Assembly: GCA_016278515.1 (NCBI GenBank)
Contig: JADQBR010000085.1
Location: forward strand, 1-64,000
Reading direction: 5' to 3'
DNA from: Bacillota bacterium
GTDB taxonomy: Bacteria > Bacillota > JADQBR01
Length of the DNA: 64,000 nucleotides
Shown piece by piece: positions 31,305 through 57,084 of this stretch. Made by a program: the position numbers and the translations under genes. Positions within the stretch are counted from its first letter, which is position 1. Every line of letters starts with the position of its first letter. The notes below the pieces were generated by a model that was not told where the DNA came from, made no database searches, and saw nothing but the letters and a program-made list of their open reading frames with translations.

Positions 31305-32258
31305 TTAAATATAATCATTTTCTTCAAGAAACTCCCGGGCGATATCTTCAGGATTAACTGTTTCAATGTCGTGACGATAATTTAATTTACTCATCTGCTC
31401 GTTACTTATTTCACCACTAATAATCTCTAGAATTTCTTTGAGTTTAGGATATTTTTCAGCAATACTTCCTCTCAACACATACGCACCACTATAATCAGGG
31501 AAGAAACCTTTATCGTCTTCCAATGTAACAAGGTTTAATTCTTCAATTCTTGGGTCAGTCGCATAAGCTGCGATGACATCCACTTCGTCTTTATCAATGG
31601 CTCTGTATATGATACTATATTGCATTGGCAGTACCTTCTTGAACTCGATGCCATACGCCTCAGACCACCCTGGATAAGCATCGGGACGAACATCAAAATT
31701 ATCGTCTCCTGCTAATATCCAATCTTTTGCATATGGTGCCATATCAGATGACTTCTGCAAATCAAGTTCTTGGACTACTTCTTCTTTTGCCGCCATAATA
31801 TATGTGTTATTAAACCCAAAAGGCTTTGTCCAAGTCATATCAAACTGATCTTCAAACCCTTCTTTCACATAATCCCATGTTTCCTGACTGCTCATTTGAG
31901 GTCCTTCATAACCCAAAACACCTGTCAATTGAGTCCCTGTCCATGTTGGGTAAACATCAATTTCATCCTGGACCATAGCTTGATGCAAAACGGAAGAGCC
32001 AGTAAAGTCAGTATTTACATTTACTGTTAACCCAGTATTCTCTTCGATAAGCACTTTTGCAATATGAGCCAGTACAACCGTTTCATTAACGTTTTGGGCT
32101 GCTACATTTAACTCACCTTGATAGTCCATTGGGTCATTACTGTTACTGGCTGAATCATCTGCTTTATCCTCTTGACCCCCGCCGCATCCGGTTAATGTAA
32201 CTAACAACGATAATGCTAAAAAGGTTACTAACAATAGTTTACTTGTTTTTTTATGCAT
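31305..32258 (-). CDS. OpuC-type substrate-binding lipoprotein
   Basis: 317 aa; ATG overlaps the permease gene by 8 nt and follows AAAGGAG. Lipoprotein signal ending LVTLTGCGGG. The mature part matches the OpuAC/ProX-like fold of glycine-betaine/choline/carnitine binders (LNVAAQNVNETVVLAHIAKV, VYPTWTGTQLTGVLGYEG, AAYATDPRIEELNLVTLEDD). The same fold also binds other quaternary or amino compounds. Given the operon, its ligand may be the amino compound degraded by the neighbouring enzymes. Confidence 0.87.
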   Translation of the reverse strand: MHKKTSKLLLVTFLALSLLVTLTGCGGGQEDKADDSASNSNDPMDYQGELNVAAQNVNETVVLAHIAKVLIEENTGLTVNVNTDFTGSSVLHQAMVQDEIDVYPTWTGTQLTGVLGYEGPQMSSQETWDYVKEGFEDQFDMTWTKPFGFNNTYIMAAKEEVVQELDLQKSSDMAPYAKDWILAGDDNFDVRPDAYPGWSEAYGIEFKKVLPMQYSIIYRAIDKDEVDVIAAYATDPRIEELNLVTLEDDKGFFPDYSGAYVLRGSIAEKYPKLKEILEIISGEISNEQMSKLNYRHDIETVNPEDIAREFLEENDYI

Positions 32259-33006
32259 CCATTTCCATCTCCTTTTGATTATTACTATCCTTGGCCTTAT
32301 TTTCCGCTAGCTTATTTAATCTTGCTGCCCGTCTCTTAGGACTCATTGCTTCCTGCAACTTTTTCAGTCCATAATCTATAGAAAGCGCCAGAGTAGTTGC
32401 AGGTAAAGCCCCGGCAAAAATTATATCATTTCTAATGAATGACAAACCAGAAAATATCAAACTACCCAAACCGCCACCCCCAATAGCTGCCGCAAGTGTA
32501 GCAGTACCTATAATCCAAACTGAAGCTACCCTGATGCCGGCAATTATCACCGGCCTGGCCAATGGCAGTTCGACCATCTTTAATATCTGAAATTCTGTCA
32601 TGCCTACTCCTCTGCCGGCTTCTGTAGCTGATTTTGGAACGTTCTTAATGCCGGTATAGGTATTTTGCAGCACTGGTAGTAATGCATAAAGTGTCAATGC
32701 GATGATGGCATTTTTATCACCAATACCGACAACAGAAATTAACATACCCAGTAAAGCCAAGCTGGGTATTGTCTGGCATATATTAGCAAATCCTATTACA
32801 TACGGAGCAAGTTTCTCATTCCTAGTGATGTAAATACCGGTAGGAATACAGATAATTACAGTCAGCAGTAAAGCAATGCCGGATATATAAATATGCTCCC
32901 ATGTTAAGTAGAGTATTTTCATGTAATTTGCCGATACATAGGTGAAAAAATTAACCCAAAACTCTAGAAATTTCTCACTTAACGACTGGATACCCAGTGA
33001 GTACAA
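32251..33006 (-). CDS. OpuC-type ABC permease
   Basis: 251 aa, TTG start at 33006 behind AAGGTGTGAG. About six membrane helices; the EAA-like loop reads SATEAGRGVGMTEFQILKMVELPLA, shown here only by its key part GVGMTEFQ. Features GIYITRNEKLAPYV and VWIIGTATLAAAIGGGGLG are typical of OpuCB/OpuCD. Only one permease gene is present, unlike the classical four-gene opuC operon with two permeases, so it likely works as a homodimer. Confidence 0.88.
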   Translation of the reverse strand: MYSLGIQSLSEKFLEFWVNFFTYVSANYMKILYLTWEHIYISGIALLLTVIICIPTGIYITRNEKLAPYVIGFANICQTIPSLALLGMLISVVGIGDKNAIIALTLYALLPVLQNTYTGIKNVPKSATEAGRGVGMTEFQILKMVELPLARPVIIAGIRVASVWIIGTATLAAAIGGGGLGSLIFSGLSFIRNDIIFAGALPATTLALSIDYGLKKLQEAMSPKRRAARLNKLAENKAKDSNNQKEMEMDA

Positions 33007-33007
33007 A

Positions 33008-34204
33008 TTAACTCACACCTTTCTTATCTGCTCCGTCCGCAGCTAGTTGTGCCTGTTCCTGCATCTTTTTTTGCTTATTTAAGCGACTGATTGTTAATTT
33101 GGCAATCCCATTACTGGTCACCAAGCCGACGAACTTGTTGGTTTCATCAACTATGGGAATAGGCAAGTCTGCATCTATCAGCATCTCTGCTGCGTCACTT
33201 AATACTGCTTCCTCGATATATAATTTCCGGCCAGCCACTGCAGCCTGCTTGACTTTAGCACCCTGGCGGGCTGCTCGCTTAACTTGAGGAAGCTGTGCCA
33301 TACCCAGCCAACGACCGCTTTTGTCCACTATCTGTGCTGATTCCCTTCCTAAATCCTCAATTTGTTCTAATACCAATTGTGCATCTATATCAGGCGTAAC
33401 AACCAGCGGGGCATCTTCCATAATGACATACACAGGAGAATCCGCGCCTACTGAGGCAAGTCTTTCTTGCCCAATAAAATCTGCTACAAACTTATTAACC
33501 GGCTTAGCTTGTATCTCTGCCGGTGTGCCTGCCTGTACCACTTTTCCCTGACGCATTATGACAATTTTATCTGCCAGCTTAAGTGCTTCATCAATATCAT
33601 GAGTAACAAATACTATGGTCTTCTTCAGTCTCTGCTGCAGGTCTATTAGCTCGTTCTGTAGACTTTCCCTACTGATAGGATCCAGTGCACCAAACGGCTC
33701 GTCCATCAGCACAACATTCGGTTCTACTGCCAATGCACGCAGCACGCCTATTCGCTGCTGCTGCCCACCACTCAACTGATCAGGTAAGCGATACTTATAC
33801 TTGGATGGAGGTGTCAGACCTGCCAAAATGAGCAGTTCATCTACTCTCTTGGCCATTTTATTCTTCTTCCATTTATGAAGCTTTGCAACGATAGCAATAT
33901 TCTCTTCAATGGACATATGTGGAAATAGCCCTATTTGCTGGATAACATAGCCAATACTTCTTCTTAATGCAACAGGATTAGTAGAAGAAATATCTTTACC
34001 GTCAACATAAATAGTCCCGGAAGTGGGTTCTTCCAACCTATTAATCATTTTGAGTGATGTTGTCTTCCCACAGCCGCTCGGCCCGATAAGAACAACCAAT
34101 TCTCCTTTTTCAATTTCCAGGTTTAGATTCTGTACCGCCACAGTACCGTCTGGATATTCCTTGCTTACATTCTCAAAAGTCACCACTGATTTAGACACCC
34201 TCAC
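33008..34204 (-). CDS. OpuC-type ABC ATPase with CBS domains
   Basis: 398 aa. Walker A GPSGCGKTTSLKMI, signature LSGGQQQRIGVLRAL, Walker B VVLMDEPFGALD and switch His in FVTHDIDEA. After about residue 270 there are two CBS repeats (DLGRESAQIVDKSGRWLG and DADLPIPIVDETNKFVGLVT), the ionic-strength-sensing module of OpuA/OpuC ATPases. GTG start at 34204. It lies 16 bp after the aminotransferase gene in a same-strand run. Confidence 0.92.
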   Translation of the reverse strand: MRVSKSVVTFENVSKEYPDGTVAVQNLNLEIEKGELVVLIGPSGCGKTTSLKMINRLEEPTSGTIYVDGKDISSTNPVALRRSIGYVIQQIGLFPHMSIEENIAIVAKLHKWKKNKMAKRVDELLILAGLTPPSKYKYRLPDQLSGGQQQRIGVLRALAVEPNVVLMDEPFGALDPISRESLQNELIDLQQRLKKTIVFVTHDIDEALKLADKIVIMRQGKVVQAGTPAEIQAKPVNKFVADFIGQERLASVGADSPVYVIMEDAPLVVTPDIDAQLVLEQIEDLGRESAQIVDKSGRWLGMAQLPQVKRAARQGAKVKQAAVAGRKLYIEEAVLSDAAEMLIDADLPIPIVDETNKFVGLVTSNGIAKLTISRLNKQKKMQEQAQLAADGADKKGVS

Positions 34205-34220
34205 TTAATTCTCTTAGATT

Positions 34221-35321
34221 TTAAGCACATTTATTTATTACTTTTTTTAGTGCATCAAGAAACATTTCGTTCTCCTCGGGTTTGCCAACGGTTACTCTTA
34301 ATGCATTAGGATAACCCCAGCCGGCCGCTGACCGAACAATTACACCTTGATGCATTAATGCTTCAGCTATCTCATCAGCTGAACAATCTGTTTGAAAAAA
34401 TACAAAATTAGTCTCCGCAGGTATTACTTCAAAACCCATGGTTTCTAAGTTGCTTTCCAACTCAGCTCTACTGTTAATGGTCCATTCCAAGGTTTTAGTG
34501 AAATACTCTTTGTCCAGCAGCGCAGCCCTTGCACCGGCTATCCCAATACGATTGGCGTTAAAAGGTTCGCTTACAGTATCAATAATCTTAATTAGTTCCG
34601 GGCGTGCTATTACATAACCTAGTCTGGCGCCGGCTAACCCGTAGGCCTTAGAAAAAGTACGCACTACTATCAGGTTTTTTCCTTCCTTCACGGCATCAAG
34701 ACTTTTTGGGAACAGATCCTTACGAGCAAATTCTGAATACGCCTCATCGATAACCAGCCAAACATGACTTGGCATTTTATCAAGCAGCTCAGTGAATTCC
34801 TTATGATTAAACATAGTACCGGTGGGATTATTGGGATTGCATAACCAAACTAATTTCGTGTTTTCTGTCACCGCATCCAATACTCTTGACAGATCTATTT
34901 TGTAACCGTCCATGGGAGTATTAATAACTTTGGCACCCATAACTTTAGAAATTTCAGGATACAAAGAGTAAGTTGCCTGGGGAACAACTACTTCATCGCC
35001 TTCTTCTATAAAACTTTTGGAAATGGTCTGCAGAACACCTTCAGCGCCATGAGACAATGCAATATACTCTTCATTAACATCACATTTTCCCCCGATTAAC
35101 TTCTTTATCTCCACAAAATTGGCATCAGGATAGCAATTTAGGTTTATAAGTTCCTGCTGCATAGCCTCCAAGACACTGGGAAACGGCCCATATGGGTTTT
35201 CATTAGATCCAAGCTTAACTACATGGGAAATTCCTAGTTCCCTTTGGATCTCCTCTACTGTTTTTCCCGGTATATATTTTTTAACGTTTTTAATAGCTTT
35301 TCTTACTCGATCCATACCCAT
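34221..35321 (-). CDS. Class I/II aminotransferase, HisC-like
   Basis: 366 aa from an ATG at 35321 that overlaps the TPP-enzyme stop by one base (TGATG). PLP fold type I: LGSNENPYGP, NPNNPTGTMF, VIDEAYSEF and the PLP lysine in RTFSKAYGLAGARLGY. The closest type by motif is histidinol-phosphate or aromatic aminotransferase. No histidine gene is nearby, and it is embedded between a 2-oxo-acid decarboxylase-like gene and an amino-compound importer. I infer catabolic transamination of an amino acid to the 2-oxo acid that the TPP enzyme then uses. Confidence 0.87.
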   Translation of the reverse strand: MGMDRVRKAIKNVKKYIPGKTVEEIQRELGISHVVKLGSNENPYGPFPSVLEAMQQELINLNCYPDANFVEIKKLIGGKCDVNEEYIALSHGAEGVLQTISKSFIEEGDEVVVPQATYSLYPEISKVMGAKVINTPMDGYKIDLSRVLDAVTENTKLVWLCNPNNPTGTMFNHKEFTELLDKMPSHVWLVIDEAYSEFARKDLFPKSLDAVKEGKNLIVVRTFSKAYGLAGARLGYVIARPELIKIIDTVSEPFNANRIGIAGARAALLDKEYFTKTLEWTINSRAELESNLETMGFEVIPAETNFVFFQTDCSADEIAEALMHQGVIVRSAAGWGYPNALRVTVGKPEENEMFLDALKKVINKCA

Positions 35322-36955
35322 CAACTTAACCCCCCTGCAACATCTACTTCTATCAGCATAGGGTTTTCCTTAGAAAATGCTTCTTTTAGAGCTTGCTTCA
35401 GTTCTTGAGCGGTTGTAACACGTTGTCCTGAAATACCATAACTAGCAAAGATACGTATAAAATCAGGGTTTTTATGATCTACTGCGATAGTTTCACCGGG
35501 GTGTCGTGCTTTCTCGTTACGTTTAATCTCCCCAAAACAACTATCATTCCAGATAATAATCGGCAGAGCTATATTATGTTCAGCAATAACCGCCAACTCT
35601 TGAAGGGTGAATTGAAAACCGCCATCACCGACTAAAACTAAAGCTTTGTTATGTGTATCTGCCAACTTTACACCAATTGCTGCCGGCAAAGCCCAACCCA
35701 ATGTGCCAAAACCAACAGGATGTAAAAATGTATTTGGATGGTAACTGGGAAACTCACTTAAAGCAACATAGGCCGGTGTAGTCATATCAGCCAAAACAAC
35801 TGCATCTTCCGGAGTTCCTTCACGGATAGCAGCAAGCATCTCCAAAATATAATCCATTTGGTCATTAATTCCGGTGACACTCTTTAATTGACATCTACCC
35901 TGCACTTTAGCGTCTGCAACTTGTTTATGTCTCGCATCAGCATCAAAATCTTTCTCGTCCAAATTGGAAACTATCTTATCTAAGACCATAGCCGCATCAC
36001 CACGTATAGGTATATCCGTTCTATAATTCCGATTAAAATTAGCCGGGTCCATGTCTATTTGAATTAATTTACCATCCAAAGCCAGCGGAACTTCCCACAA
36101 GTCAGTAGGCGCCAATTCTGTTCCCACAGCAACTACAGCATCCGCTCTTTGAACAATTTCTATTACCGCAGGAAGGTGGGACCTTGTGCCTAAACATAGC
36201 GGGTATTTCTCAGACACACTTCCTTTTCCTGCTACTGTTTGCACAATGGGGGCTCCCAGTTTCTCAGATAACTGCATAACCTTATCAGCCGCAGCTATGC
36301 TGCCGCCACCAGTAATTATGACTGTTTGGTCTGCTTTGTTAAGCAGTTTAACAGATTTCAAAATTTGCTCTTCCTGCTGCTCAATGTTCCAGTTTTGATA
36401 ATAGGCTGGATTTTTGAAAAACAATTGAGGGACTGATTCCACAGTATCTTGTAAAATGTCCATAGGGATTTCCAAGTGCACCGGGCCCGGACGACCTGAA
36501 ACAGCTAAATGATATGCTTCTTCTAAATAGTGTCCAATATGTTCTTTCTGTGTAATTGTTCTACTTTCTTTGGTAACACTTTTAGTTAAGTACGTGGGGT
36601 TGTTTAACTCGTGAAGAAAACCTGTGCGTTGGCCGATAAAGGAGGTCGGCATTTGGCTCGAAATAACTATCATGGGAATGGAATCGCCAAATGCTTGGCC
36701 CATGGGAGTAATTATATTTGTTAACCCAGGCCCGGTGATGACTAAACACACACCCGGTTTGTCGGTTACCCGGCTATAGCCATCAGCCATATATCCCGCA
36801 CCCTGTTCATGTTTGGCGGTAATATGTTTAATCTTACTATTAAGAAGTGAATCGTAAATATCTAAATTATGTATTCCGGGAATTCCGAAAAGAATATCTA
36901 CACCTAACTGTTCAAGAGTATCAACCAGCAAATCCGCTCCATTTCTTTTTACCAT
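35321..36955 (-). CDS. TPP-dependent 2-oxo acid decarboxylase-like enzyme
   Basis: 544 aa, start after AAAGGTGAT. Catalytic Glu50 in KHEQGAGYMADGYSR, VITGPGLTNIITPMGQA, a central domain starting near AAADKVMQL, and a TPP/Mg motif from GDG at 443-445 to N470. This is the acetolactate synthase-like superfamily, which also includes arginine-pathway 2-ketoarginine (AruI-type), phenylpyruvate and sulfopyruvate decarboxylases. There is no regulatory subunit. Coupling to an aminotransferase and AOR argues for decarboxylation of a 2-oxo acid to an aldehyde. The exact substrate cannot be read. Confidence 0.83.
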   Translation of the reverse strand: MVKRNGADLLVDTLEQLGVDILFGIPGIHNLDIYDSLLNSKIKHITAKHEQGAGYMADGYSRVTDKPGVCLVITGPGLTNIITPMGQAFGDSIPMIVISSQMPTSFIGQRTGFLHELNNPTYLTKSVTKESRTITQKEHIGHYLEEAYHLAVSGRPGPVHLEIPMDILQDTVESVPQLFFKNPAYYQNWNIEQQEEQILKSVKLLNKADQTVIITGGGSIAAADKVMQLSEKLGAPIVQTVAGKGSVSEKYPLCLGTRSHLPAVIEIVQRADAVVAVGTELAPTDLWEVPLALDGKLIQIDMDPANFNRNYRTDIPIRGDAAMVLDKIVSNLDEKDFDADARHKQVADAKVQGRCQLKSVTGINDQMDYILEMLAAIREGTPEDAVVLADMTTPAYVALSEFPSYHPNTFLHPVGFGTLGWALPAAIGVKLADTHNKALVLVGDGGFQFTLQELAVIAEHNIALPIIIWNDSCFGEIKRNEKARHPGETIAVDHKNPDFIRIFASYGISGQRVTTAQELKQALKEAFSKENPMLIEVDVAGGLS

Positions 36956-41804: not shown

Positions 41805-41905
41805 AATATTGATAAATCCAACTATATTTGAATAACCCAAGAAAATATTTACACAATATAGTAATAATGGTAAAGTATAAGTATATTTTGAAAGGGGTTG
41901 GAAAA

Positions 41906-43312
41906 TTGATTTATCATCATTTATACAACAAATTCCGCAAGCAAGAAAATGTAAAAGCAGGAGTTATCGGAGCTGGTCAATACAGTACTGCAGTTATTAC
42001 CCAATCTATGTTCAATCCATTTTTAACAATACCCGTTGTCGCTGACCAAGACATTAACGCCGCTAAATTAGCATATCATCGCGCAGGTATACCAGATGAA
42101 AATATTGTTGAATGCGAAAAATACTCTGATGCAATAAAAGCGATAGAAGCTGGAAAGTATGTAGTAACTACTGATCCAATGATATTAATGAAACTTCCCC
42201 TAGACATCATTGCAGAAGGTACTGGTGTGCCTGAAGCAGGGGCACTCTATGGTTACGAAGCTATCAAAAATGGTAAGCATGTTGCTATGATAAATAAGGA
42301 GACTGATTCAGTTGTAGGACCGATCTTAAGGCACCTGGCCGAAAAGGCAGGTTTAGTTTATACGCCCGTTGACGGAGACCAGCATGGCTTATTGATGGGA
42401 CTAGTATCCTGGGCAAGAGGTTTAGGCCTGGAGGTAATATCTGCCGGCAAGGCGCGGGATGCAGAATATGTTTATGATAGAAAGACAAATATAATTACCT
42501 GTGAGGCCGATGGAAAGACTGTTCTTGAAACTAAGAAGGTCCATCTAACGAAGGAGACTGAGAAATATATAAATCCACTTACAGATGATGTTAAAAATTA
42601 TATTTGTAGGCGCCGTGAGATAATGTCTGACCTCCCCACTGCCGGCGATTTTGACTTGTGTGAATTACAAATTACTGCCAATGCCACAGGGCTAATGCCC
42701 GGTACTCCTACTACCTATCAACCCATTAGTCGCATTAGTGAAATACCAAAGGTTCTGTGTCCTGTAGATGAGGGTGGCTTATTAGAAAACAAAGGAATAA
42801 TCGATGTGGTTACCTGTTTTAGAGAACCACATGAAGCCGGATTAGGCGGCGGAATATTTATAGTTGTTTCCAGTGAAAACGAATACTCAAGAATGATCTT
42901 AACGACCAAAGGACTTTTGTCAAATAGCTCAGGTACAGCTTCATTGATTTATCGTCCCTATCACCTATGTGGTGTAGAAACTCCAACATCGTTGCTATGT
43001 GCAGGACTATTGGGGATATCTACTGGAAATGATGAATATCTACCTAGCTATGACTTAGTAAAAGTAGTGCAAAGAAATATGAAAAAAGGTGAAATACTGG
43101 GCGGTGATTATACCCCTGATCTTAAAGCCTCTATCCTCCCTGCCGAGGCTACAGCTAATGGTGCACCTATCCCTGCTCATTTATTAAATGGTAACAAGTT
43201 GATTAAAGATATTCAGGCAGGAACATTACTGACATATGAAATGGTAGAACCGCAAAGCGACTCAATCTTGTGGAAACTGAGAAAACAACAAGATGAACTA
43301 TTCTTAAGGTAG
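41906..43312 (+). CDS. COG4091-type homoserine-dehydrogenase-like protein with SAF domain
   Basis: 468 aa from a TTG at 41906 behind AAAGGGG; earlier in-frame starts lack a site. N-terminal NAD(P)-binding segment AGVIGAGQYSTAVITQ, then VTTDPMILMKLPLDIIAEGTG and HVAMINKETDSVVGPIL as in the homoserine dehydrogenase-like family COG4091. The C-terminal part (after about 380) has the SAF-like sequence GDYTPDLKASILPAEATANG with PIPAHLLNGNKLI. Members act on carbon backbones in poorly known catabolic routes. An SDR gene follows 59 bp later, suggesting a shared pathway. Confidence 0.7.
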   Translation: MIYHHLYNKFRKQENVKAGVIGAGQYSTAVITQSMFNPFLTIPVVADQDINAAKLAYHRAGIPDENIVECEKYSDAIKAIEAGKYVVTTDPMILMKLPLDIIAEGTGVPEAGALYGYEAIKNGKHVAMINKETDSVVGPILRHLAEKAGLVYTPVDGDQHGLLMGLVSWARGLGLEVISAGKARDAEYVYDRKTNIITCEADGKTVLETKKVHLTKETEKYINPLTDDVKNYICRRREIMSDLPTAGDFDLCELQITANATGLMPGTPTTYQPISRISEIPKVLCPVDEGGLLENKGIIDVVTCFREPHEAGLGGGIFIVVSSENEYSRMILTTKGLLSNSSGTASLIYRPYHLCGVETPTSLLCAGLLGISTGNDEYLPSYDLVKVVQRNMKKGEILGGDYTPDLKASILPAEATANGAPIPAHLLNGNKLIKDIQAGTLLTYEMVEPQSDSILWKLRKQQDELFLR

Positions 43313-43371
43313 TCTAACCAGGAAATTATATCTTCTTTATAAGAACTTATATAATAGGAAGGATGGGACTT

Positions 43372-44115
43372 ATGAATGACGTAAAAGGAAAGGTTGCCTT
43401 AATAACGGGCGCTGCTACAGGCATCGGAAGTTCTGTAGCAATAATGTTGGCTGAAAAAGGAGCAAATATTGTTATTAACTACTCGAAATCCGCAAAAGAC
43501 GCGGAAGATACACTTAAAGAAGTGCAAGGGCTTGGTGTTGAGGGCATTACCTGCCAAGCTGATGTTTCAAAAGATGCCGAAGTTTGTCAAATGGTTGATA
43601 AAGTAATAGAAAGGTTCGGCAGATTAGATATCTTAGTTAACAATGCCGGGACCACAAATTTCGTGGAACTACATGACTTAGAAGGCTTAAAGGAAGAGCA
43701 TTGGGATCGTGCCTTCAATACTAATTCCAAGGCCATCTTTTTTGTCAGTAGAGCCTGCGCTGAAGAATTAAAGAAAAACAAAGGGTGTATTGTCAATACT
43801 ACTTCAATAGCTGGTCAAACCGGCAGAGGAAGTTCTATGGCTTATGCCGCTTCCAAAGCCGCAGGAATCAGTATTACAAAATCCTTGGCATTGGTTTTAG
43901 CACCAGAAGTTCGAGTAAATTCAGTTGCACCAGGGATAGTTACAACCCGCTGGGTGGAAGGTAAAGAGGACCATGTGAAAAAACTATCTGAAGGTACTCC
44001 TATAGGAAGACCAGCAAATGCGGAAGACGTAGCAGAAGTAGTGCTAAGCTTAATTACAAGTGCCGGTTTAGTAACGGGCCAGACAATAGTGGTAGATAGT
44101 GGGTTTACCATATAA
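43372..44115 (+). CDS. Short-chain dehydrogenase/reductase
   Basis: 247 aa from an ATG at 43372, nine bases after GGAAGG (the ATG at 43363 abuts that site). Classical SDR: cofactor motif TGAATGIG, NNAG, catalytic Ser and YxxxK in TTSIAGQTGRGSSMAYAASK, and a C-terminal TGQTIVVDSGFTI as in FabG-like enzymes. It reduces or oxidises a carbonyl/alcohol with NAD(P)H. Pairs with the COG4091 gene upstream. Confidence 0.88.
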   Translation: MNDVKGKVALITGAATGIGSSVAIMLAEKGANIVINYSKSAKDAEDTLKEVQGLGVEGITCQADVSKDAEVCQMVDKVIERFGRLDILVNNAGTTNFVELHDLEGLKEEHWDRAFNTNSKAIFFVSRACAEELKKNKGCIVNTTSIAGQTGRGSSMAYAASKAAGISITKSLALVLAPEVRVNSVAPGIVTTRWVEGKEDHVKKLSEGTPIGRPANAEDVAEVVLSLITSAGLVTGQTIVVDSGFTI

Positions 44116-45624: not shown

Positions 45625-46986
45625 TTATTGTCTCATCAATTTAAGATACCTTATAAATAGGCTGATTGAACCTGCAGAAAGCCTTAATACACTAAAGACT
45701 CCGAATTTCTTAATGAGATACATAATATTATTCCGCGCTAGATTTACATGAAGATTAGTCTTTAGTATTTCATAGTAATACCTTCTTAGGCTCATACCTG
45801 ACGGCTGTATGGTTACCTCACCAAAACTCCACTTTTCATATTCTTCTTTACCTACCAAAAGCCTGTCCTGGTATTCTGCGTACAGAGGCAAGTTTGGAAA
45901 AGGTGTCAGAGGAGAAAAACTAGATACTTCCGGATCCAAAGTTTTTAAGTACTTCCTAAAGTCTTTAAAGTCCTCTACGCTCCAATCCGGGTGGAGCATG
46001 AAAGACGCCCACACGTCAAGACGAATTTCCTTCAAGAATCGGCTTGCTTCTATATTATCCTGAATAGTTGATTTTTTATTGTAGCTGTTAAGCTCATCAT
46101 CCTTGAAGGTCTCATACCCTATCAGTACAGCCTTTAAGCCTAGATTTTGAAACCTCTTGATCACTTGCTTATTTTTCAAGACGCTTTTCACACTGCCATA
46201 GCAAATAAAATTCTTTTGGATCTGCTCCATTTCTAAAAAATCACATAGTTCCCTTATACGGTGCGAATTATGTAGAAAATCATTATCAAAGATCATGATA
46301 TTATCTTCTTTAATATTCAAGATATCCTCTTTAACAAAATCTATAGGAAAATAGCTTTCTTTAGCGCCTTCAATCCTCCATCTTAAGCAAAAACGGCAGT
46401 TTTGAGCACATCCTTGGGATGTACCCATAATAGCAGAGGGTTTATAGCCAAAATAGGAGTATTTGCTTCTGTACTTTGCTGTAGACTCCCTGTTGGGAAG
46501 TACATATTCATTTCTATCATGTTTATTGGTGGTCTGGTAATCATTTATCCGACTGCAAATTCCATCAATAATGGGCGGCTCTGCTCCTAATTCTAGGTAA
46601 TTATACAGCTGAGCAATATTCTCGGTAGTAGTGTACTTCATTACATGGTCTACTGCATCAGAAAAAAAAGCTTTACTATTTAAAAGTGCCTGAGTACCGC
46701 CAATAATGGTAATAATATTTCCACCATATTTTTTTACTCTTTCCGCCAACTCCTTGACTGCCGGAACGTCTATGCAAAGTGTAGTGATTCCTACTACCTG
46801 AGGCTCGTAATCTGCCAGTTTATCTTCTATGCAAATTTTCTCTGACATCAGGTCCAATATTTCCACCTGGTGCTTAGCCTCCAACATGGCATACACCATT
46901 TCGAGACCAATAGGTTCGCTGTACATAAATTCACCCAAGGCAATAGCTTTTTTTATTCTTGGGGGTCTTACCAAAAGTACCTTCAT
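45625..46986 (-). CDS. B12-binding-domain radical SAM enzyme 1
   Basis: 453 aa from an ATG at 46986 behind GAGG. N-terminal cobalamin-binding-type Rossmann domain (KVLLVRPPR, QVVGITTLCID, ITIIGGTQA), then the radical SAM triad CAQNCRFC (Cys193, Cys197, Cys200) and a TIM barrel, with a C-terminal helical tail MSLRRYYYEILKTN. The B12 domain lacks the DxHxxG lower ligand, as in many class B enzymes. Such enzymes methylate unactivated carbons or rearrange them. It is paralogous to enzymes 3 and 4 of this operon and is the last gene of the set. Confidence 0.85.
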   Translation of the reverse strand: MKVLLVRPPRIKKAIALGEFMYSEPIGLEMVYAMLEAKHQVEILDLMSEKICIEDKLADYEPQVVGITTLCIDVPAVKELAERVKKYGGNIITIIGGTQALLNSKAFFSDAVDHVMKYTTTENIAQLYNYLELGAEPPIIDGICSRINDYQTTNKHDRNEYVLPNRESTAKYRSKYSYFGYKPSAIMGTSQGCAQNCRFCLRWRIEGAKESYFPIDFVKEDILNIKEDNIMIFDNDFLHNSHRIRELCDFLEMEQIQKNFICYGSVKSVLKNKQVIKRFQNLGLKAVLIGYETFKDDELNSYNKKSTIQDNIEASRFLKEIRLDVWASFMLHPDWSVEDFKDFRKYLKTLDPEVSSFSPLTPFPNLPLYAEYQDRLLVGKEEYEKWSFGEVTIQPSGMSLRRYYYEILKTNLHVNLARNNIMYLIKKFGVFSVLRLSAGSISLFIRYLKLMRQ

Positions 46987-46998
46987 CAATCTGCCTCA

Positions 46999-48315
46999 CT
47001 AAATTATATTTGGAGTAATCCTCCGTTTAATTTGATATCTATAATATAAATTAACCATAAGATAAAATGTATATCTGTCCATCCTCTTTAGAAAGTCTTT
47101 TCTGAGTATAATTCTATTAAATATAGATTTCATTGAAAATACTTTATCATAAAGTTCCCAGTATGCATCTGTTAACTCTTGGAGAGTCATGTTTTTGGGT
47201 ATGTGAACAGCCTCGCTGCCGTTATAAGAATATATATCTGTCTTATAAATCCTGTTTTCTTCCTGCAGAATTTCAAAATATTTTGTTCCGGGAATGGGAG
47301 TAAGTATATAAAACCTTGGTATTACAATTTTATTCTCTTCAATAAACGCAGCTGTCTCCTTAATGGACTGAAGAGTATCGCCGTCAGCCCCCACCACCAT
47401 TTCTGTGGATACATCTATCCCTGCTTCTTGAATATTGTTTATCATGGCCGAATAATCAGAAGGATGCGCCCAAGACTTATTGAGATATTTGAGGCTTTCT
47501 GCCGATATGCTTTCCAGACCAAAGCTTAATGCTATGCAACCGCTGTCCGCCACAATTTCCAGTAGTTCTCTATCCTCTCCAATTTTAATAGAGCATTGGG
47601 AAGCCCATTGCATGTTAAGTTTCTTAATTTCCCTGCATAATTCTATTAAATACGCCCGCTCCGATATGATATTATCATCTAATAATAAAAATTTATGAAA
47701 ACCTAATTCCTTTACCTGAGTTATATCCCTGATAACCTCTGAAATGTCTCTTTTCAAATACTTATTCTTATAAAGGCAGTACACGGAGCAAAAGCTGCAA
47801 GAATTTGGACAACCTCTTCCAGCCTGTACGGGTAGAAAATCTCCGATATTTTTATTAACTATTAGATCAAATCTTGGCAACGGCGTAGAAAGGCTATCTA
47901 ATTCTTCTTTATAGCACTTTTTTAATAGTCCACTTTCAAAATCACGGATGACTTTTTCCCACACTTCTTCCGCATCGCCAATAACAACGCTGTCACAGTA
48001 CCGCTGCGCTTCCTCGGGCATCAGGCTTGCCATATAACCACCCAAGATAACGGTCTTACCCCTTTTCTTAAATTCCTTAGCAATATCTATAGAACGTATG
48101 ATAGCATGTCCCATACTGCCGACAGCGATAATATCTGCATCTGTATCAAAAGGAATATCCTCGATAGTTTCCAAGATAATTTGTACATCCCAGTCTTCTG
48201 GCGTTAGGGCAGCCAACAGGGGTAGACCCAGCCCCACAAAATAGAGTTTTTTCTTTTTTATAGGATTCCTAAACGAATCATATGGTGTTGATTGAATGAG
48301 AAGCAGCTTTTTCAT
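46999..48315 (-). CDS. B12-binding-domain radical SAM enzyme 2
   Basis: 438 aa. N-terminal GLPLLAALTPEDWDVQIILE and DIIAVGSMGH, ILGGYMASLMPEE form the cobalamin-like domain; the cluster motif is CPNSCSFC (Cys169, Cys173, Cys176), followed by LLLDDNIISERAYL and GLESIS. It resembles the HpnP/BchE-like group more than its three neighbours do. Three-base gap to the previous gene, RBS AGAGGTAA. Likely carries out a methylation or other radical step different from that of its paralogous neighbours. Confidence 0.85.
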   Translation of the reverse strand: MKKLLLIQSTPYDSFRNPIKKKKLYFVGLGLPLLAALTPEDWDVQIILETIEDIPFDTDADIIAVGSMGHAIIRSIDIAKEFKKRGKTVILGGYMASLMPEEAQRYCDSVVIGDAEEVWEKVIRDFESGLLKKCYKEELDSLSTPLPRFDLIVNKNIGDFLPVQAGRGCPNSCSFCSVYCLYKNKYLKRDISEVIRDITQVKELGFHKFLLLDDNIISERAYLIELCREIKKLNMQWASQCSIKIGEDRELLEIVADSGCIALSFGLESISAESLKYLNKSWAHPSDYSAMINNIQEAGIDVSTEMVVGADGDTLQSIKETAAFIEENKIVIPRFYILTPIPGTKYFEILQEENRIYKTDIYSYNGSEAVHIPKNMTLQELTDAYWELYDKVFSMKSIFNRIILRKDFLKRMDRYTFYLMVNLYYRYQIKRRITPNII

Positions 48316-48318
48316 CTA

Positions 48319-49665
48319 TTAATTACCTCTTACTAACTTTTTTATATACTGTATGGTTACAACACTGCTTCCTAGAGATAGCTTTAATACATCTTTCAAT
48401 CCGTATTTTTTAATAAGCCGGGCAACATTTCCCGGGGCCATAGTTATTTTGTAATATAACTTTATCATTTCAAAATAATATCGGCGCACAGACATTTTCT
48501 CTGGTTTTAATACTAGGTGAGCCAAATCCCATTTTTCAAACTGCTCACCGTCAACGATTAAATCCTCTTTATACATTTGATAAATCTCCGTACCTCGCAA
48601 TGGAGTTAACGGCTGTAAATTGATAAAGACCAGCCCCATTCTTTTTAACCACTTATACAGATTATGAAAATCCTCTTTGGAAAAGTCCATATCTAAGATT
48701 AAGGTTCCATACACTTCTATATCATACCTTTTTAGTATTCTAACGGCCTTCTCGTTCTCCCGAATGCTGGTCCGTTTATTATATTTATCTAGTACCTCGT
48801 TTTTAAAGGATTCCAGCCCCACTATCACTGCCTGCAGACCATGATCACGAAAGACCTTTATTACATGTTCATTATTACTTATGAAATCCGCCCTGCCATA
48901 AACCAAGAACTTTTTATTCAGATTATTTTCCTTTAGTTTCTGGCAAAATTCCAATATCCGATCACCTGAAACCAGAAAATCATCATCCACAATGTAAATT
49001 TCTTGTTCAGGGATTTGTTTTAACTCCTCAATAACGGAATTTACACTTCTGGTAAAATATTTTCCCTCGGTTATTTCTTTGCAGAAACAGAAGCTGCAGC
49101 TATAGGGACAGCCAAAGGAAGTCTTAATCAAAGCGCACGGATTATGGAACATATAGTAATACTTCCTTCGATACTTCCCCACCTTCTGACGGTCAGGAAA
49201 CTTATAGTTAAATGAGGCGTCTTTGACATTCTGTCTGCCTTCCCTATAGGTACCCTGGACATCCATTAACTCTAAGTTGTCTAGGATAGCGTTAAAGGTG
49301 CTTAATCCGTTGGCGTCTACAATGAAATCTATGTGCTCATCCGTAAAATCCTGGGGCTGCACCTCTGCATGGACTCCCCCCACCACCTTACAGTCCGGCC
49401 GAATATCTTTAATTCTCCTGGCATAATCTTTTATGACATTGACATGGGTGATATAGCCACTGATACCCACAACATCAGGTTGATACCTTTTTATAAAGTA
49501 TTGTAGGGACTTCTTTTCTAGAATCATATCAATAATCTCGACATTAGCATCCGTTCTATCAATATTGGCAGCTAAATACTCCAGTTCCAGGGGTTCACAA
49601 ACCATTACATGCTGCAATCCAATGGTCTCTTTGTCGGGTTTAGGTCTAATTAGCAGGATGTTCAT
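48319..49665 (-). CDS. B12-binding-domain radical SAM enzyme 3
   Basis: 448 aa, start after GGGGAATGAG. Cobalamin-like domain NILLIRPKP, DVVGISGYITHV, VVGGVHAEVQ; radical SAM motif CPYSCSFC (Cys186, Cys190, Cys193) followed by FCKEITEGKYFTRS; then VDDDFLVSGDRILEF, GLESFKNEVLDKYNK, and a tail SVRRYYFEMIKLYYKI. Clear paralogue of enzymes 1 and 4 in both halves. Three bases after the methyltransferase gene. Confidence 0.86.
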   Translation of the reverse strand: MNILLIRPKPDKETIGLQHVMVCEPLELEYLAANIDRTDANVEIIDMILEKKSLQYFIKRYQPDVVGISGYITHVNVIKDYARRIKDIRPDCKVVGGVHAEVQPQDFTDEHIDFIVDANGLSTFNAILDNLELMDVQGTYREGRQNVKDASFNYKFPDRQKVGKYRRKYYYMFHNPCALIKTSFGCPYSCSFCFCKEITEGKYFTRSVNSVIEELKQIPEQEIYIVDDDFLVSGDRILEFCQKLKENNLNKKFLVYGRADFISNNEHVIKVFRDHGLQAVIVGLESFKNEVLDKYNKRTSIRENEKAVRILKRYDIEVYGTLILDMDFSKEDFHNLYKWLKRMGLVFINLQPLTPLRGTEIYQMYKEDLIVDGEQFEKWDLAHLVLKPEKMSVRRYYFEMIKLYYKITMAPGNVARLIKKYGLKDVLKLSLGSSVVTIQYIKKLVRGN

Positions 49666-49668
49666 TTC

Positions 49669-50319
49669 TCATTCCCCTTCTAGAGGATACTCGTCACACA
49701 TTTTGAGTACAAAACAATAAATGGAGGGCATAAAAACACGGTCCTTAATCCTGAGGACTCTTTCACATTGAAAGAATTTCTCCGTCATGCTTAATACATT
49801 TTCGACACTTAAATATTTGGCCTTGCCCGTCGTCATTTTCACAAAAAGCATTGCCGCATGATCGTATAAATTATTCTGTGATGCCTGGGCCAAAAGCAAG
49901 TGCCCCCCAAGCTTTAATCTATCTTTGAATTGCCTAATCGCATAATCCTGTCTCTCATAATAAGGAAAAGAGTGAGTACAAATTATTATGTCAAACCCTT
50001 TTCCTAAGCTATCTATATCACTAACATCCAGTTGCGGATAGCGAATGTTACCACCCATGCTTGTTGCTCTATTAACCATACTCTTAGAGAAGTCTATTCC
50101 TGTCAGTTCCAAATCGTATTCGGCAAACTCAGCTTCTATTTCCCTTAGAAGCTGACCTGTGCCGCAGCCTACATCCAGAATACTGTACCGTTTACCTGCT
50201 ATGAGCAGCATTTTTAATTGCCTCAATATCTCTCCCCGAGTAGGCGCCAGGGAATACTTTTGTATCCATAGTCGTTCATAATACCCGGCCCAGAAATCCC
50301 AAATCACCTGTTTATTCAT
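49669..50319 (-). CDS. SAM-dependent methyltransferase of the radical SAM operon
   Basis: 216 aa. Class I methyltransferase: ILDVGCGTGQLLREI, LTGIDFSKSMVNRA, and IIICTHSFPYYE. Overlaps the upstream radical SAM gene by 4 nt (ATGA). It may methylate the product at N, O or C, complementing the radical enzymes. A helical C-terminal part reads FFQCERVLRIKDRVF. Confidence 0.85.
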   Translation of the reverse strand: MNKQVIWDFWAGYYERLWIQKYSLAPTRGEILRQLKMLLIAGKRYSILDVGCGTGQLLREIEAEFAEYDLELTGIDFSKSMVNRATSMGGNIRYPQLDVSDIDSLGKGFDIIICTHSFPYYERQDYAIRQFKDRLKLGGHLLLAQASQNNLYDHAAMLFVKMTTGKAKYLSVENVLSMTEKFFQCERVLRIKDRVFMPSIYCFVLKMCDEYPLEGE

Positions 50320-51638
50320 TGCTTCCTCCAGGGTTTAATAATATTTTTTAATGCTTTATAAACAAGACTTCTTGCCGGCCTGCTTCTTAACAACTGATCA
50401 GCATAAATTAAGTAAAAATAAAAATAGAACAACAAAGCATTCATGTGTACAGGCTTTATTGTTAAATGTAAGAAATCCCATTTGGAATAATCTTTGACCT
50501 CTATCTGACTTTCATATGCCTGATAAATTGCGGTTCCCTTTAGGGGAGTGAATATGGAAATAGTATAATAGTTTAGCCTCAGTTTTCTAATCCAGTCTCT
50601 AAGCCTCTTAAAATCTTTCCTAGTAAAATCAATCCCGGCAATAAAAAGTGCCGTTAAATTTACATTGTTCTTTTGTAAAATATCTGTAGCCTTGATACTG
50701 TCATTAAAGGTGTATTGCTTATTAAAACCCTCCAAGATTGTATCATCTACCGCCTCCATTCCCACTATCAGCTCAACAAAACCTATGCCGGCCAATTTGC
50801 TGATAATGTCAGGGTTATTTGCGATAAAATCAATTCTAGAATAGGCAATAAATTTCTTAGCTATTCCTTTTCTTCCAATCTCATCAATAAACTGTAAGAT
50901 GCGCGTTCTATCTAACAGGAAACTATCATCCACAATCCAAACATACTCCCCTTTAATTGCTTCAATTTCCTCTACCACAGACTCGATACTCCTAGCAGCA
51001 TAGATACCCATATTCAGCATCCGACAATAACAAAAGTTACATTTAAAAGGACAGGATATAGCTGTCTGTATTATGGCAATAGGACTGTATCCCAAGTATT
51101 TGGTTCTACTTTGATACTTTTCGAAATAATTTCTGTTAGGCAATGACATGTTTTCTAAAGAAGTAGACTTTTTTCTATTTGCCTGCCATTTCCCCTGGTG
51201 AAAAAAGGCGATACCATCAATGGCTGCTGCCTTCTCGCCCTGAAAACCGCTTTTCAGTAATTGTTCCAGAGAATTGACCGAGTCCGAATGAACAATAAAA
51301 TCTACGGTATCCACAAAAAAATCTTCATAGTTTACCGCGGCATGAACCCCACCAACAACAACTTTAACATGATCTTGCCTGTTCTTAGCATAGCGAGAAT
51401 AGCTTACAATGGTATCCACTGCCGTTATATATCCGCTCAGTACCAGTACATCCGGTCTATAATCGTTAAATACTTTTTCAAAACTGCCACCTTCCATTAA
51501 CGGGTCGTAAACTCTATAAGGTACCGTCAGCCTGTCTAATAACCCTGCCAAATACTCCAACTCAAGGGGTTCTGTGACAATTGGCCCTATTCTTGAAAAA
51601 AAGGTCTTTTTATGACATTTTACCAACAGGATTTTCAT
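50316..51638 (-). CDS. B12-binding-domain radical SAM enzyme 4
   Basis: 440 aa from an ATG at 51638 behind AAGGGGGAAGAGG; overlaps the upstream gene by 29 nt. Cobalamin-like domain KILLVKCHKK, DVLVLSGYITAVD, VVVGGVHAAVN; cluster motif CPFKCNFC (Cys196, Cys200, Cys203), then CYCRMLNMGIYAARS, WIVDDSFLLDRTRIL and GMEAVDDTILEGFNK. Paralogue of enzymes 1 and 3. Confidence 0.86.
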   Translation of the reverse strand: MKILLVKCHKKTFFSRIGPIVTEPLELEYLAGLLDRLTVPYRVYDPLMEGGSFEKVFNDYRPDVLVLSGYITAVDTIVSYSRYAKNRQDHVKVVVGGVHAAVNYEDFFVDTVDFIVHSDSVNSLEQLLKSGFQGEKAAAIDGIAFFHQGKWQANRKKSTSLENMSLPNRNYFEKYQSRTKYLGYSPIAIIQTAISCPFKCNFCYCRMLNMGIYAARSIESVVEEIEAIKGEYVWIVDDSFLLDRTRILQFIDEIGRKGIAKKFIAYSRIDFIANNPDIISKLAGIGFVELIVGMEAVDDTILEGFNKQYTFNDSIKATDILQKNNVNLTALFIAGIDFTRKDFKRLRDWIRKLRLNYYTISIFTPLKGTAIYQAYESQIEVKDYSKWDFLHLTIKPVHMNALLFYFYFYLIYADQLLRSRPARSLVYKALKNIIKPWRKQ

Positions 51639-52620
51639 CCTCTTCCCCCTTAAACACCGTATGGACAATTTCATAATGTTTATAGGAAAACCTGCCTGCC
51701 AGCCTATCAAATAGGATACTTAACACAGGATTACTATGATGTATATACATAGATTTCGGCTGCTGCAGAGCACCTAGTTTCATCTTGGTTTCCTCAGCAG
51801 TCTGTCCCAAGTCGATGCATTTATAACCGTTTTCAATTCCATAGCGTATGATAAGGAGCAGCATATTCATATATAAATCATATTTATGATTTATATCGTG
51901 TTGAAACCCTCCAAGTAAAAAGATCAATTCATCTCCGTTTTCCACCAATTGAATAAATGCAATCACTTCGCCGTTGCTTATAAATGTGAGTATTTTTGAG
52001 GGATAATTCTTGAAAAAGCGTATTGGCAGCTTTTCTAATTTTTCATTGGAGTTCTCATATACATTGAGATAAAGGTTGTACATTTCTTTATCAAACAACT
52101 TATTATCTTGTAACTCCTTAATTTCGGTACCGGAAAATCTTCGAAGTGCCTTTTTCACTCTATGCCGGTAATGACTTCTCATACTTTTAAGATAGTCATC
52201 AAAACTATTCCATCTAATTGCAATTTTGCACGTGGGAAGGGTACTGCCTTTAGCAATTTTAAATTCATCATCACTATTTAGAATAAGATAAAACCCTTTT
52301 AACGATTTTACATACTTACTAACATCAACCTTATTCCTAGGGCAACAAATAGAATAACCGCATTTAGAAACAGACATTGGAATGCCAATTATATTGACAG
52401 GTATTTTAAAGGACAAATACTTAGAAAAAGTCAACAGGTCAAGTTTTAATTTATAGGATACCAAAACAATATTTTTTTCCTGGTTTAGATGGTATGATTG
52501 ATTGCACGGGTTCAATTGCTCCAGGTTTTGTAACGAATCTCTTTTTAAGAACGGATTGTCTCCGGCTAAATCATCCCACATTTCAGGCAAATTACCCGCA
52601 TCATTATAAACTTTAAACAT
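51610..52620 (-). CDS. GNAT/FemAB-like acyltransferase 1
   Basis: 336 aa, start after AAAGGACAGG. The C-terminal half has the fold seen in GNAT/FemAB-type transferases: YLKSMRSHYRHRVKKALRR, YENSNEKLEKLPIRFFKNYP, GEVIAFIQLVENGDELIFLL, and YLYMNMLLLIIRYGIENGYKCIDLGQT-like segments of which only short parts are quoted. Such proteins transfer acyl or aminoacyl groups to amines. Donor and acceptor unknown. Second gene of the operon. Confidence 0.7.
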   Translation of the reverse strand: MFKVYNDAGNLPEMWDDLAGDNPFLKRDSLQNLEQLNPCNQSYHLNQEKNIVLVSYKLKLDLLTFSKYLSFKIPVNIIGIPMSVSKCGYSICCPRNKVDVSKYVKSLKGFYLILNSDDEFKIAKGSTLPTCKIAIRWNSFDDYLKSMRSHYRHRVKKALRRFSGTEIKELQDNKLFDKEMYNLYLNVYENSNEKLEKLPIRFFKNYPSKILTFISNGEVIAFIQLVENGDELIFLLGGFQHDINHKYDLYMNMLLLIIRYGIENGYKCIDLGQTAEETKMKLGALQQPKSMYIHHSNPVLSILFDRLAGRFSYKHYEIVHTVFKGEEDENPVGKMS

Positions 52621-52633
52621 GGACCTGTCCTTT

Positions 52634-53710
52634 CTACGTATCTATCGTAAATACTTGATAGTGCTTATACTCTTGATCAGCCCATCTCATACCTAATCCT
52701 CTTGATGCCAGGTTATCCTCCAGTATCCATCCTGATTCACAATAATCATAGCGTCCCTGCACCAATTCCCTGCATTTATGAAATAATGCCAGCACTGCTC
52801 CCTTTTTATGATATTGGGGAAGCACACCCAACTCTACTATCTTAAATTTACTTATTTTATTGGGGAAAAGCTTATTCTTTAAAACAGTTTTCAATCCAAC
52901 AGTTTCTCCAGGTCTTATTAATTCATTAAAGTCAGGATACCAAAGCATAAAACCGATAGGAATCCCCTGATCCTCTAAAAATAGCATATTTTCCTCTTTT
53001 AACAATACCTTAAATTGCTTAAATAGCTCTAAATCCTCTTCCAGCCTTCTTTGATAGTAGAACTTATGGTTCTTAAAAGCCTCATTATTAAGATTGGTAT
53101 AGGTCTCTATTTCCCCTGTAAAATTGCCAAAATCCATCGTTCGCACGTTATACTTTGCAGCAACCCTATCTACCAGCCTGTTATCCAGACGTGCATCAAA
53201 ATTTTCCATCTTAGTCAAATAGCTAACTAGGTTAAATTGTTCATCAGCGTACGGTTTAAAATAATCAATGTAATAAGAAGGATTATAAGCTGTACCAAAA
53301 CTCGGAACAAATTCATGCTGGTCTGCCAGTAGACCTAATCCATAATTCACATGGAAGTTCAGCCCCAGTAAAATTTTACTGGCACCGTACCTACGTGCCA
53401 ACTTTTTCCCATAATCCACTATCATTTTCACTGCTTGTTCTTGATTATCTAGTGCTTCAAAAAAAGTAATCTGCAAAGTATCACTAAGCCTATCCACCAA
53501 AGCAAATATACAGACTGCAACAATTTTATTCGAATCCACTACCATTACAGGTACCACCGTGCTGCTCTTACAAATCTGCGCCTTTCCCATTAAGATACTC
53601 TTCAGAATTGTACTCATGCTATCCCTGTAATAGGCATCGTTTGTATATACCTCTTTACAAAAGGCCATATAATCCTTAATGGAGGCTCTGTCAACAATTT
53701 CTATTCTCAT
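52634..53710 (-). CDS. GNAT-fold N-acyltransferase 2
   Basis: 358 aa, start after GAGGTGACAT. First gene of the operon. N-terminal IVDRASIKDYMAFCKEVY, middle KKLARRYGASKILLGLNFHV, and a C-terminal GNAT-like core with IPIGFMLWYPDF and FKIVELGVLPQYHKKGAVLALFHKC, where QYHKKGAV resembles the acetyl-CoA binding loop. Likely an N-acyltransferase for a small molecule. Family beyond the GNAT fold not recognised. Confidence 0.7.
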   Translation of the reverse strand: MRIEIVDRASIKDYMAFCKEVYTNDAYYRDSMSTILKSILMGKAQICKSSTVVPVMVVDSNKIVAVCIFALVDRLSDTLQITFFEALDNQEQAVKMIVDYGKKLARRYGASKILLGLNFHVNYGLGLLADQHEFVPSFGTAYNPSYYIDYFKPYADEQFNLVSYLTKMENFDARLDNRLVDRVAAKYNVRTMDFGNFTGEIETYTNLNNEAFKNHKFYYQRRLEEDLELFKQFKVLLKEENMLFLEDQGIPIGFMLWYPDFNELIRPGETVGLKTVLKNKLFPNKISKFKIVELGVLPQYHKKGAVLALFHKCRELVQGRYDYCESGWILEDNLASRGLGMRWADQEYKHYQVFTIDT

Positions 53711-53827
53711 ATGTCACCTCAAACTGCTTGGGAAAGATTTAAGCTTATTAAACAATTATATAACTTTTCGGTAATTCCTTTAGTTCATTTTTTCCTTTCT
53801 GCTCTCCAACTGCAATTCCAAGAAAAT

Positions 53828-53886
53828 GGGACGCGGGGATGTTTCATCTGTCTTGTCGAAAGACAACTGAAACGTCCCCGCGTCTC
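53828..53886. repeat. REP-like hairpin element, complete copy
   Basis: Arms 53828-53846 and 53868-53886 pair almost perfectly (GACGCGGGGA and TCCCCGCGTC at the outside, GTTTCA/TGAAAC inside), with an inner hairpin TGTCTT/AAGACA. G-rich, about 59 bp, intergenic. It resembles REP sequences mobilised by IS200-like RAYT transposases. Confidence 0.7.
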
Positions 53887-53892
53887 CGTCAG

Positions 53893-57029: not shown

Positions 57030-57060
57030 GGAGACGCGGAGACGTTTCATCTGTCTTGTC
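57030..57060. repeat. REP-like hairpin element, half copy
   Basis: GGAGACGCGGAGACGTTTCA followed by TCTGTCTTGTC matches the left arm and loop of the element at 53828-53886; the right arm is missing. Confidence 0.65.
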
Positions 57061-57084
57061 TAATTTTCACTCCAGGTTAAAAGT

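Follow-up and report, generated by a model that had tools for sequence, protein, structure and literature searches.

A co-inherited gene cassette encoding up to four B12-binding radical SAM enzymes and two transferases in Bacillota

Organization of the Operon

We analyzed a 64,000-nucleotide stretch of DNA from a Bacillota bacterium (positions 1 to 64,000 of contig JADQBR010000085.1, assembly GCA_016278515.1; referred to as the window), in which seven open reading frames (ORFs) on the minus strand, running from 53710 to 45625, form an operon. It encodes four B12-binding radical S-adenosylmethionine (SAM) proteins (RS1 to RS4), a methyltransferase (MT) and two acyltransferase-fold proteins (GN6 and GN7). 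All of the ORFs lie at the positions first given, namely:

52634..53710, minus strand: GN7, tandem GNAT-fold acyltransferase, the first gene of the operon (assigned from orthologs and models)
51610..52620, minus strand: GN6, Acetyltransf_6 / FemAB-type transferase (assigned from Pfam and fold matches)
50316..51638, minus strand: RS4, B12-binding radical SAM protein with the motif CPFKCNFC (Pfam, motif); the ATG at 51638 was taken as the start over an upstream TTG at 51710
49669..50319, minus strand: MT, class I SAM-dependent methyltransferase (Pfam)
48319..49665, minus strand: RS3, B12-binding radical SAM protein with the motif CPYSCSFC (Pfam, motif)
46999..48315, minus strand: RS2, B12-binding radical SAM protein of a separate lineage, with the motif CPNSCSFC (Pfam, motif)
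45625..46989, minus strand: RS1, B12-binding radical SAM protein with the motif CAQNCRFC, accessory (Pfam, motif)

The genes are separated by 13 bp (GN7/GN6), 3 bp (MT/RS3), 3 bp (RS3/RS2) and 9 bp (RS2/RS1), while two pairs overlap, GN6/RS4 by 29 bp and RS4/MT by 4 bp. These coordinates bear out the first-pass annotation, which had counted two overlaps and no gap above 13 bp among seven same-strand genes. Its assignment of four radical SAM enzymes with an N-terminal B12-type domain also holds, as both Pfam domains exceed the gathering score in each of RS1–RS4 (Radical_SAM, E 2e-15 to 2e-17; B12-binding, E 3e-8 to 2e-15). Likewise, a methyltransferase (Methyltransf_25, E 2e-15) and two acyltransferase-fold proteins are found as it had proposed, on the evidence of Pfam, orthologs and models.

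Just upstream of GN7 lies a long, nearly perfect hairpin (window 53820-53890, minus strand; -39.5 kcal/mol, z -6.3). Partial copies are present at other places in the genome (C61, C40 and window 57033-57063); thus, the hairpin looks like a dispersed palindromic repeat and was rejected as a cassette-specific element. Control by a cobalamin riboswitch was rejected, as window 36000–64000 gave no Rfam match.

Recurrence and Distribution of the Cassette

The seven genes constitute one co-inherited biosynthetic unit, recurring together far beyond chance. Including the window, the cassette is present in 25 loci, nearly all from genomes titled Bacillota or Clostridia. Scanning genome contigs with RS3 gave 16 close orthologs in other genomes (52–73% identity), and beside all 16 of them are the remaining cassette genes, bar RS1 and genes lost at contig ends; the other loci counted are those of G048, G013, G304, G279, G097, G368, Acetoanaerobium noterae and G434. 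In an even sample of the phylum (399 genomes), RS2 orthologs at E <= 8e-222 occur in seven genomes, all of which carry the cassette. The next match is at 2e-94, i.e. more than 120 orders of magnitude weaker, and with the RS3 profile, too, these seven genomes stand clearly apart from the next matches. Recurrence in other genomes had been set beforehand as the test, and the genes were found together in all checkable cases, at 24 further loci; this co-inheritance substantiates the earlier proposal of a single biosynthetic unit.

The flanks of the 25 loci are unrelated. Gene order is shared by most of them, being rearranged in L025, L028, L031, L045, L047 and L048, with RS4 moved in L017 and L020. 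The possibility that seven unrelated genes are merely adjacent by chance, for which nothing was found in favour, is refuted by the same set recurring amid unrelated flanks, and its probability is practically nil. When neighbouring ORFs of at least 60 aa were clustered, no other family was found in at least four loci, save antisense shadows of the cassette genes; the cassette thus has sharp boundaries, at GN7 on one side and RS1/RS2 on the other. No polyketide synthase (PKS), nonribosomal peptide synthetase (NRPS) or other scaffold family recurs beside it among these ORFs, and neither does any exporter, resistance or regulator gene. As for a precursor of a ribosomally synthesized and post-translationally modified peptide (RiPP), no extra same-strand family recurs among ORFs of this size, shorter ones not having been searched.

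Six of the genes are core, whereas RS1 is accessory: it is absent from four carriers, namely G405, G406, G279 and G368 (no match beyond the RS3-level score), of which G279 and G368 are assemblies 98–99% complete. In G407, RS1 lies outside the stretch analysed. The distribution of the cassette is patchy, since the same-family genomes G001 and G002 do not carry it. Cultured carriers are Alkaliphilus transvaalensis, Acetoanaerobium pronyense, Acetoanaerobium noterae and Clostridium punense. One whole cassette (L058, NZ_CP154629.1) is on a 2.6 Mb, chromosome-sized sequence listed as Acetoanaerobium noterae plasmid pTPELB2, none of whose genes are listed in the plasmid table. Another locus, L018, is titled ‘Calditrichales bacterium MX18-03’. 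Its relatives include the Clostridia-titled carrier G406, which is also its sister in the RS3 clade, so the title may be wrong; transfer across phyla is therefore not claimed.

The Radical SAM Proteins

The C–H reactions catalysed by B12-dependent radical SAM enzymes rank among the most difficult in biology, and the substrate is known for only a few of these enzymes. In RS1–RS4, the CxxxCxxC cysteines are invariant across orthologs, with RS2 being the most conserved gene of the cassette (58-80% identity). The DxHxxG string is absent from RS1, RS2, RS4 and 18 of the 19 RS3 sequences, the remaining RS3 containing it. The four proteins thus fit a predicted mode of cobalamin binding without the DxHxxG histidine (compare PMC13331322). 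The loop after strand 3 reads TxLCxDV in RS1, an invariant MGH in RS2, YI(T/A/S)HV in RS3 and GYI in RS4. At this loop are the residues found under the cobalt in TokK (Trp76) and OxsB (Asn186); Trp76 aligns with Thr73 of RS3, while the invariant His70 of RS2, placed by eye and not by profile, falls roughly at the same place. As the loops under the cobalt differ among the four proteins, identical cobalt chemistry appears unlikely. All four also have basic C-terminal tails across orthologs (averaging +5.9 to +9.2 across the final 50 residues, against about 0 for the remainder).

By sequence profile, the nearest solved structures are OxsB, CysS, TokK and AprD4, the top match being AprD4 for RS2, RS4 and the single-sequence RS3 search, and OxsB for RS1. 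The nearest curated families in NCBIfam are HpnR, BchE, PhpK, ArsL and AprD4, all far below cut-off. Since a methylase (HpnR) stands among these alongside a cyclase (BchE) and a diol dehydratase (AprD4), and since the loops differ, methylation by the RS enzymes is not established. Of the first-pass expectation that several inert carbons are methylated or rearranged, the four B12-type radical enzymes stand; several methylations are not established, as related enzymes also cyclise, contract or dehydrate, and the gene count does not tell how many methyl groups the product carries.

In a maximum-likelihood tree of 77 proteins, RS1, RS3 and RS4 each form one clade (100/99 or better) and together make up a single clade (100/99) that excludes their closest relatives from elsewhere, HpnR-like genes that are not part of any such cassette. 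An HpnR-like ancestor was therefore duplicated twice before the cassette spread, whereas RS2 is a lineage of its own.

We also observed that an HpnR-like B12 radical SAM gene and a gene for an uncharacterised protein of ~460 aa recur as a pair across several families, namely at:

L091, 7035-9826
L093, 6530-9420
L094, 7862-10724
L097, 8375-11170
L099, 7042-9979

The solitary RS3-like genes beside the ~460 aa gene at these loci gave no functional clue.

MT and the Two Transferases

In-frame fusions join MT to RS3 in L022 (740 aa) and to RS4 in L027 (621 aa), which ties MT to the RS3 and RS4 steps. GN7 itself has no Pfam match at 1e-3; 15 of its 18 orthologs touch Acetyltransf_1 (best E 1.3e-8), and its AlphaFold model (pLDDT 91.9) is a tandem GNAT, with glucosamine N-acetyltransferase 5kf1 as the best fold match (14% identity). 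A GN7 ortholog is present in each carrier locus unless a contig end cuts the locus. GN6 matches Acetyltransf_6 (PF13480) at E 3e-7, its 31.0 bits exceeding the gathering cut-off of 22. The best fold matches of its AlphaFold model (pLDDT 90.5) over the whole length are Sbb17/Sba18, MprF and FemX (TM about 0.5-0.57, 7-16% identity). Because Sbb17, FemX and MprF are aminoacyl-tRNA-dependent transferases, GN6 may transfer an aminoacyl rather than an acyl group. The acylation of an amine, as proposed earlier, is thus plausible, although the folds matched by GN6 allow aminoacyl transfer instead.

These folds also bear on the explanation that the cassette modifies a macromolecule (a cell-wall peptide, protein or RNA) rather than producing a free small molecule. 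The FemX/Sbb17 fold is used on peptidoglycan and peptides, the basic C-termini of the RS proteins could bind RNA, and B12-radical SAM enzymes methylate protein residues, e.g. in methyl-coenzyme M reductase. However, no gene for a peptide, target protein or recognition domain recurs with the cassette, RiPP precursors of less than 60 aa not being systematically excluded, and we consider this explanation quite unlikely.

A Possible Membrane-associated Product

We tentatively favour the reading that this is a self-contained, patchily distributed anaerobic cassette, in which several radical steps at carbon lead to an acylated or aminoacylated small molecule that is probably associated with the membrane. 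It builds on what was observed directly: the operon, the domains, the co-inheritance, the paralog origin of the RS proteins, the MT fusions and, in three loci, inserted genes. The latter encode a FeeM-like N-acyl amino acid synthase and a protein resembling phosphatidylserine decarboxylase (PSD), both in their Pfam families above cut-off, and lie between RS2 and RS4 in G013 and G097, which are of one genus, and in G279, which is of another family. In these genomes, FeeM occurs only within the cassette, and the PSD-like insert is a second copy, another PSD being found elsewhere in each genome. The lipid side of the reading draws on the HpnR-like ancestry, the basic tails, the MprF-like fold of GN6, the FeeM and PSD-like inserts, and the lack of a recurring exporter or resistance gene.

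Several observations weigh against this reading. The FeeM and PSD-like genes are present in only 3 of the 25 loci, two of which are of one genus, and no substrate-defining gene is universal across the cassette loci. PSD was thus rejected as an obligatory partner; moreover, no PSD whatsoever is seen in several carrier assemblies, which means that phosphatidylethanolamine is not a requirement. The solitary HpnR-like relatives also carry basic tails (+3 to +8), which marks the tails as a family trait. Finally, the best folds of GN7 (glucosamine N-acetyltransferase) and GN6 (an enzyme acting on streptothrisamine) fit an aminosugar equally well.

The last point leads to the reading that we rank second, and regard as rather unlikely, in which the product is a water-soluble, aminosugar- or nucleoside-like specialised metabolite. 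Here, the RS enzymes would deoxygenate, C-methylate or contract a sugar ring, GN7 would acetylate an amine, and GN6 would add an amino acid derived from aminoacyl-tRNA. AprD4, the apramycin diol dehydratase, and OxsB are the top structure matches of the RS proteins, and GN6 resembles Sbb17/Sba18 bound to streptothrisamine just as GN7 resembles an aminosugar acetyltransferase. These matches are, however, only at the superfamily or fold level (folds 9-16% identity); no sugar-nucleotide, glycosyltransferase, aminotransferase, exporter or self-resistance gene recurs beside the cassette; and the FeeM and PSD-like inserts fit this reading less well.

For the membrane-associated product, the pathway might run as follows. 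House-keeping precursors would be converted by GN7 and GN6 into a small scaffold that is N-acylated, aminoacylated or both. Three or four radical reactions at unactivated carbons would follow one after another, catalysed by RS3, RS4 and RS2, joined in most genomes by RS1, with the 5'-deoxyadenosyl radical derived from the [4Fe-4S] cluster and SAM together with a base-off cobalamin lacking the DxHxxG His ligand, and MT would methylate a heteroatom next to the RS3 and RS4 steps. The cell would most likely retain the product as a membrane-associated amphiphile, namely a modified amino- or acyl-amino-lipid. In this scheme, we infer the order of the reactions, the lipid nature of the product, the methylation and the group moved by GN6. 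A bolder proposal, which is more doubtful, is that the product represents a new class of membrane amphiphile or specialised metabolite made without PKS, NRPS or RiPP machinery, in which the duplicated trio and the fourth RS enzyme would act sequentially on one scaffold made by GN6 via aminoacyl-tRNA-dependent transfer; this would be new chemistry, widespread in anaerobic Clostridia.

With up to four B12-radical SAM enzymes and no other scaffold machinery, the cassette is both compact and conserved. As it is present in cultured anaerobes, its product can be sought by comparing the metabolomes of mutant and wild-type cells. A lipid product would mean a further membrane component for anaerobic Clostridia, one that might also serve as a biomarker.

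Other Features of the Window

Three further regions of the window were noted:

110-598 and 5886-7376, minus strand: the ORF at 110-598 and the start of the ORF for a polyferredoxin-like membrane protein at 7376 share the peptide string EFTDRIVRQPSSP(I/V)VLGY
31305-36955, minus strand: genes for a betaine-type ABC transporter, a histidinol-phosphate-type aminotransferase and a thiamine diphosphate (ThDP) enzyme
41828-44115, plus strand: a gene for an NAD-binding/SAF-type oxidoreductase, without an NCBIfam match at 1e-20, and after it one for a short-chain dehydrogenase

The string shared by the two ORFs suggests local duplication or recombination. The ThDP enzyme scores 526 bits against an NCBIfam cut-off of 500 for 5-guanidino-2-oxopentanoate decarboxylase, and the genes of 31305-36955 may form an import-and-degrade operon.

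Comparison with Known Systems

The families nearest to the RS proteins raise the question of whether the cassette is a variant of a known pathway, i.e. hopanoid methylation, bacteriochlorin, phosphinothricin/arsinothricin or aminoglycoside biosynthesis. HpnR, the hopanoid C-3 methylase (TIGR04367), is nearest to RS1, RS3 and RS4 (E 5e-44 to 1e-54) and shares with them the B12-binding and radical SAM domains and the length class. However, these three score 150-186 bits (best 185.9) against a cut-off of 650, and the cassette has three diverged, adjoining paralogs and no hopanoid pathway. None of 23 carrier genomes has a hopene cyclase over cut-off, which makes a hopanoid substrate unlikely, and it was rejected. 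Second nearest is BchE, the anaerobic Mg-protoporphyrin monomethyl ester cyclase (TIGR02026), likewise a B12-dependent radical SAM enzyme, acting on a hydrophobic substrate; the cassette proteins reach 81-126 bits against a cut-off of 481, and no bacteriochlorophyll genes recur beside the cassette. PhpK gives 100 bits (cut-off 600), and the AprD4-type diol dehydratase (NF033070) at best 57.5 bits (cut-off 500). Membership in the bacteriochlorin, phosphinothricin, arsinothricin and aminoglycoside pathways was rejected on these scores. Thus, while HpnR, BchE, PhpK, ArsL and AprD4 are the nearest relatives, a known-pathway variant is largely refuted and very unlikely.

The first-pass annotation had recognised no described pathway with this gene set, and none was found in NCBIfam, PADLOC or the open-licence PMC literature. 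PADLOC gave only weak superfamily-level matches (PDC-M51A, 41 bits; mad2, 56 bits), on which a defence island or anti-phage system was rejected. AprD4, OxsB, TokK and CysS, the closest solved structures, have an identical domain order where the cobalamin domain is present; their clusters carry sugar, nucleoside, carbapenem or cystobactamid scaffold genes, whereas the cassette has no recognised one. FeeM and PSD are accessory in the cassettes of three genomes and absent from that of the window.

An analogous arrangement is found on the Citrobacter portucalensis plasmid NZ_CP134684.1 (L054, 10429-21815), where five RS2-like radical SAM genes lie with GH3, an N-acetyltransferase, a PAP2 phosphatase and a fatty acid desaturase. 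The likeness is in the multi-copy radical SAM genes with an acyltransferase in a lipid-like setting, and a B12-binding domain was confirmed in the one RS2-like protein scanned. The difference is that its radical SAM proteins are only 29-32% identical to RS2, and no RS1/RS3/RS4, MT, GN6 or GN7 ortholog is present in the cluster. It was therefore rejected as a homologous cassette and is an analogue, apparently also an orphan. Separately, L106 5673-9344 (G416) has two RS2-like genes (35-38% identity to RS2) adjoining another radical SAM-like ORF, possibly a small cluster.

Taken together, the cassette is an orphan member of the broad kind of B12-radical SAM biosynthetic clusters, set apart by having no recognised scaffold gene and by its combination of two transferases with three duplicated B12-radical SAM enzymes and one more.

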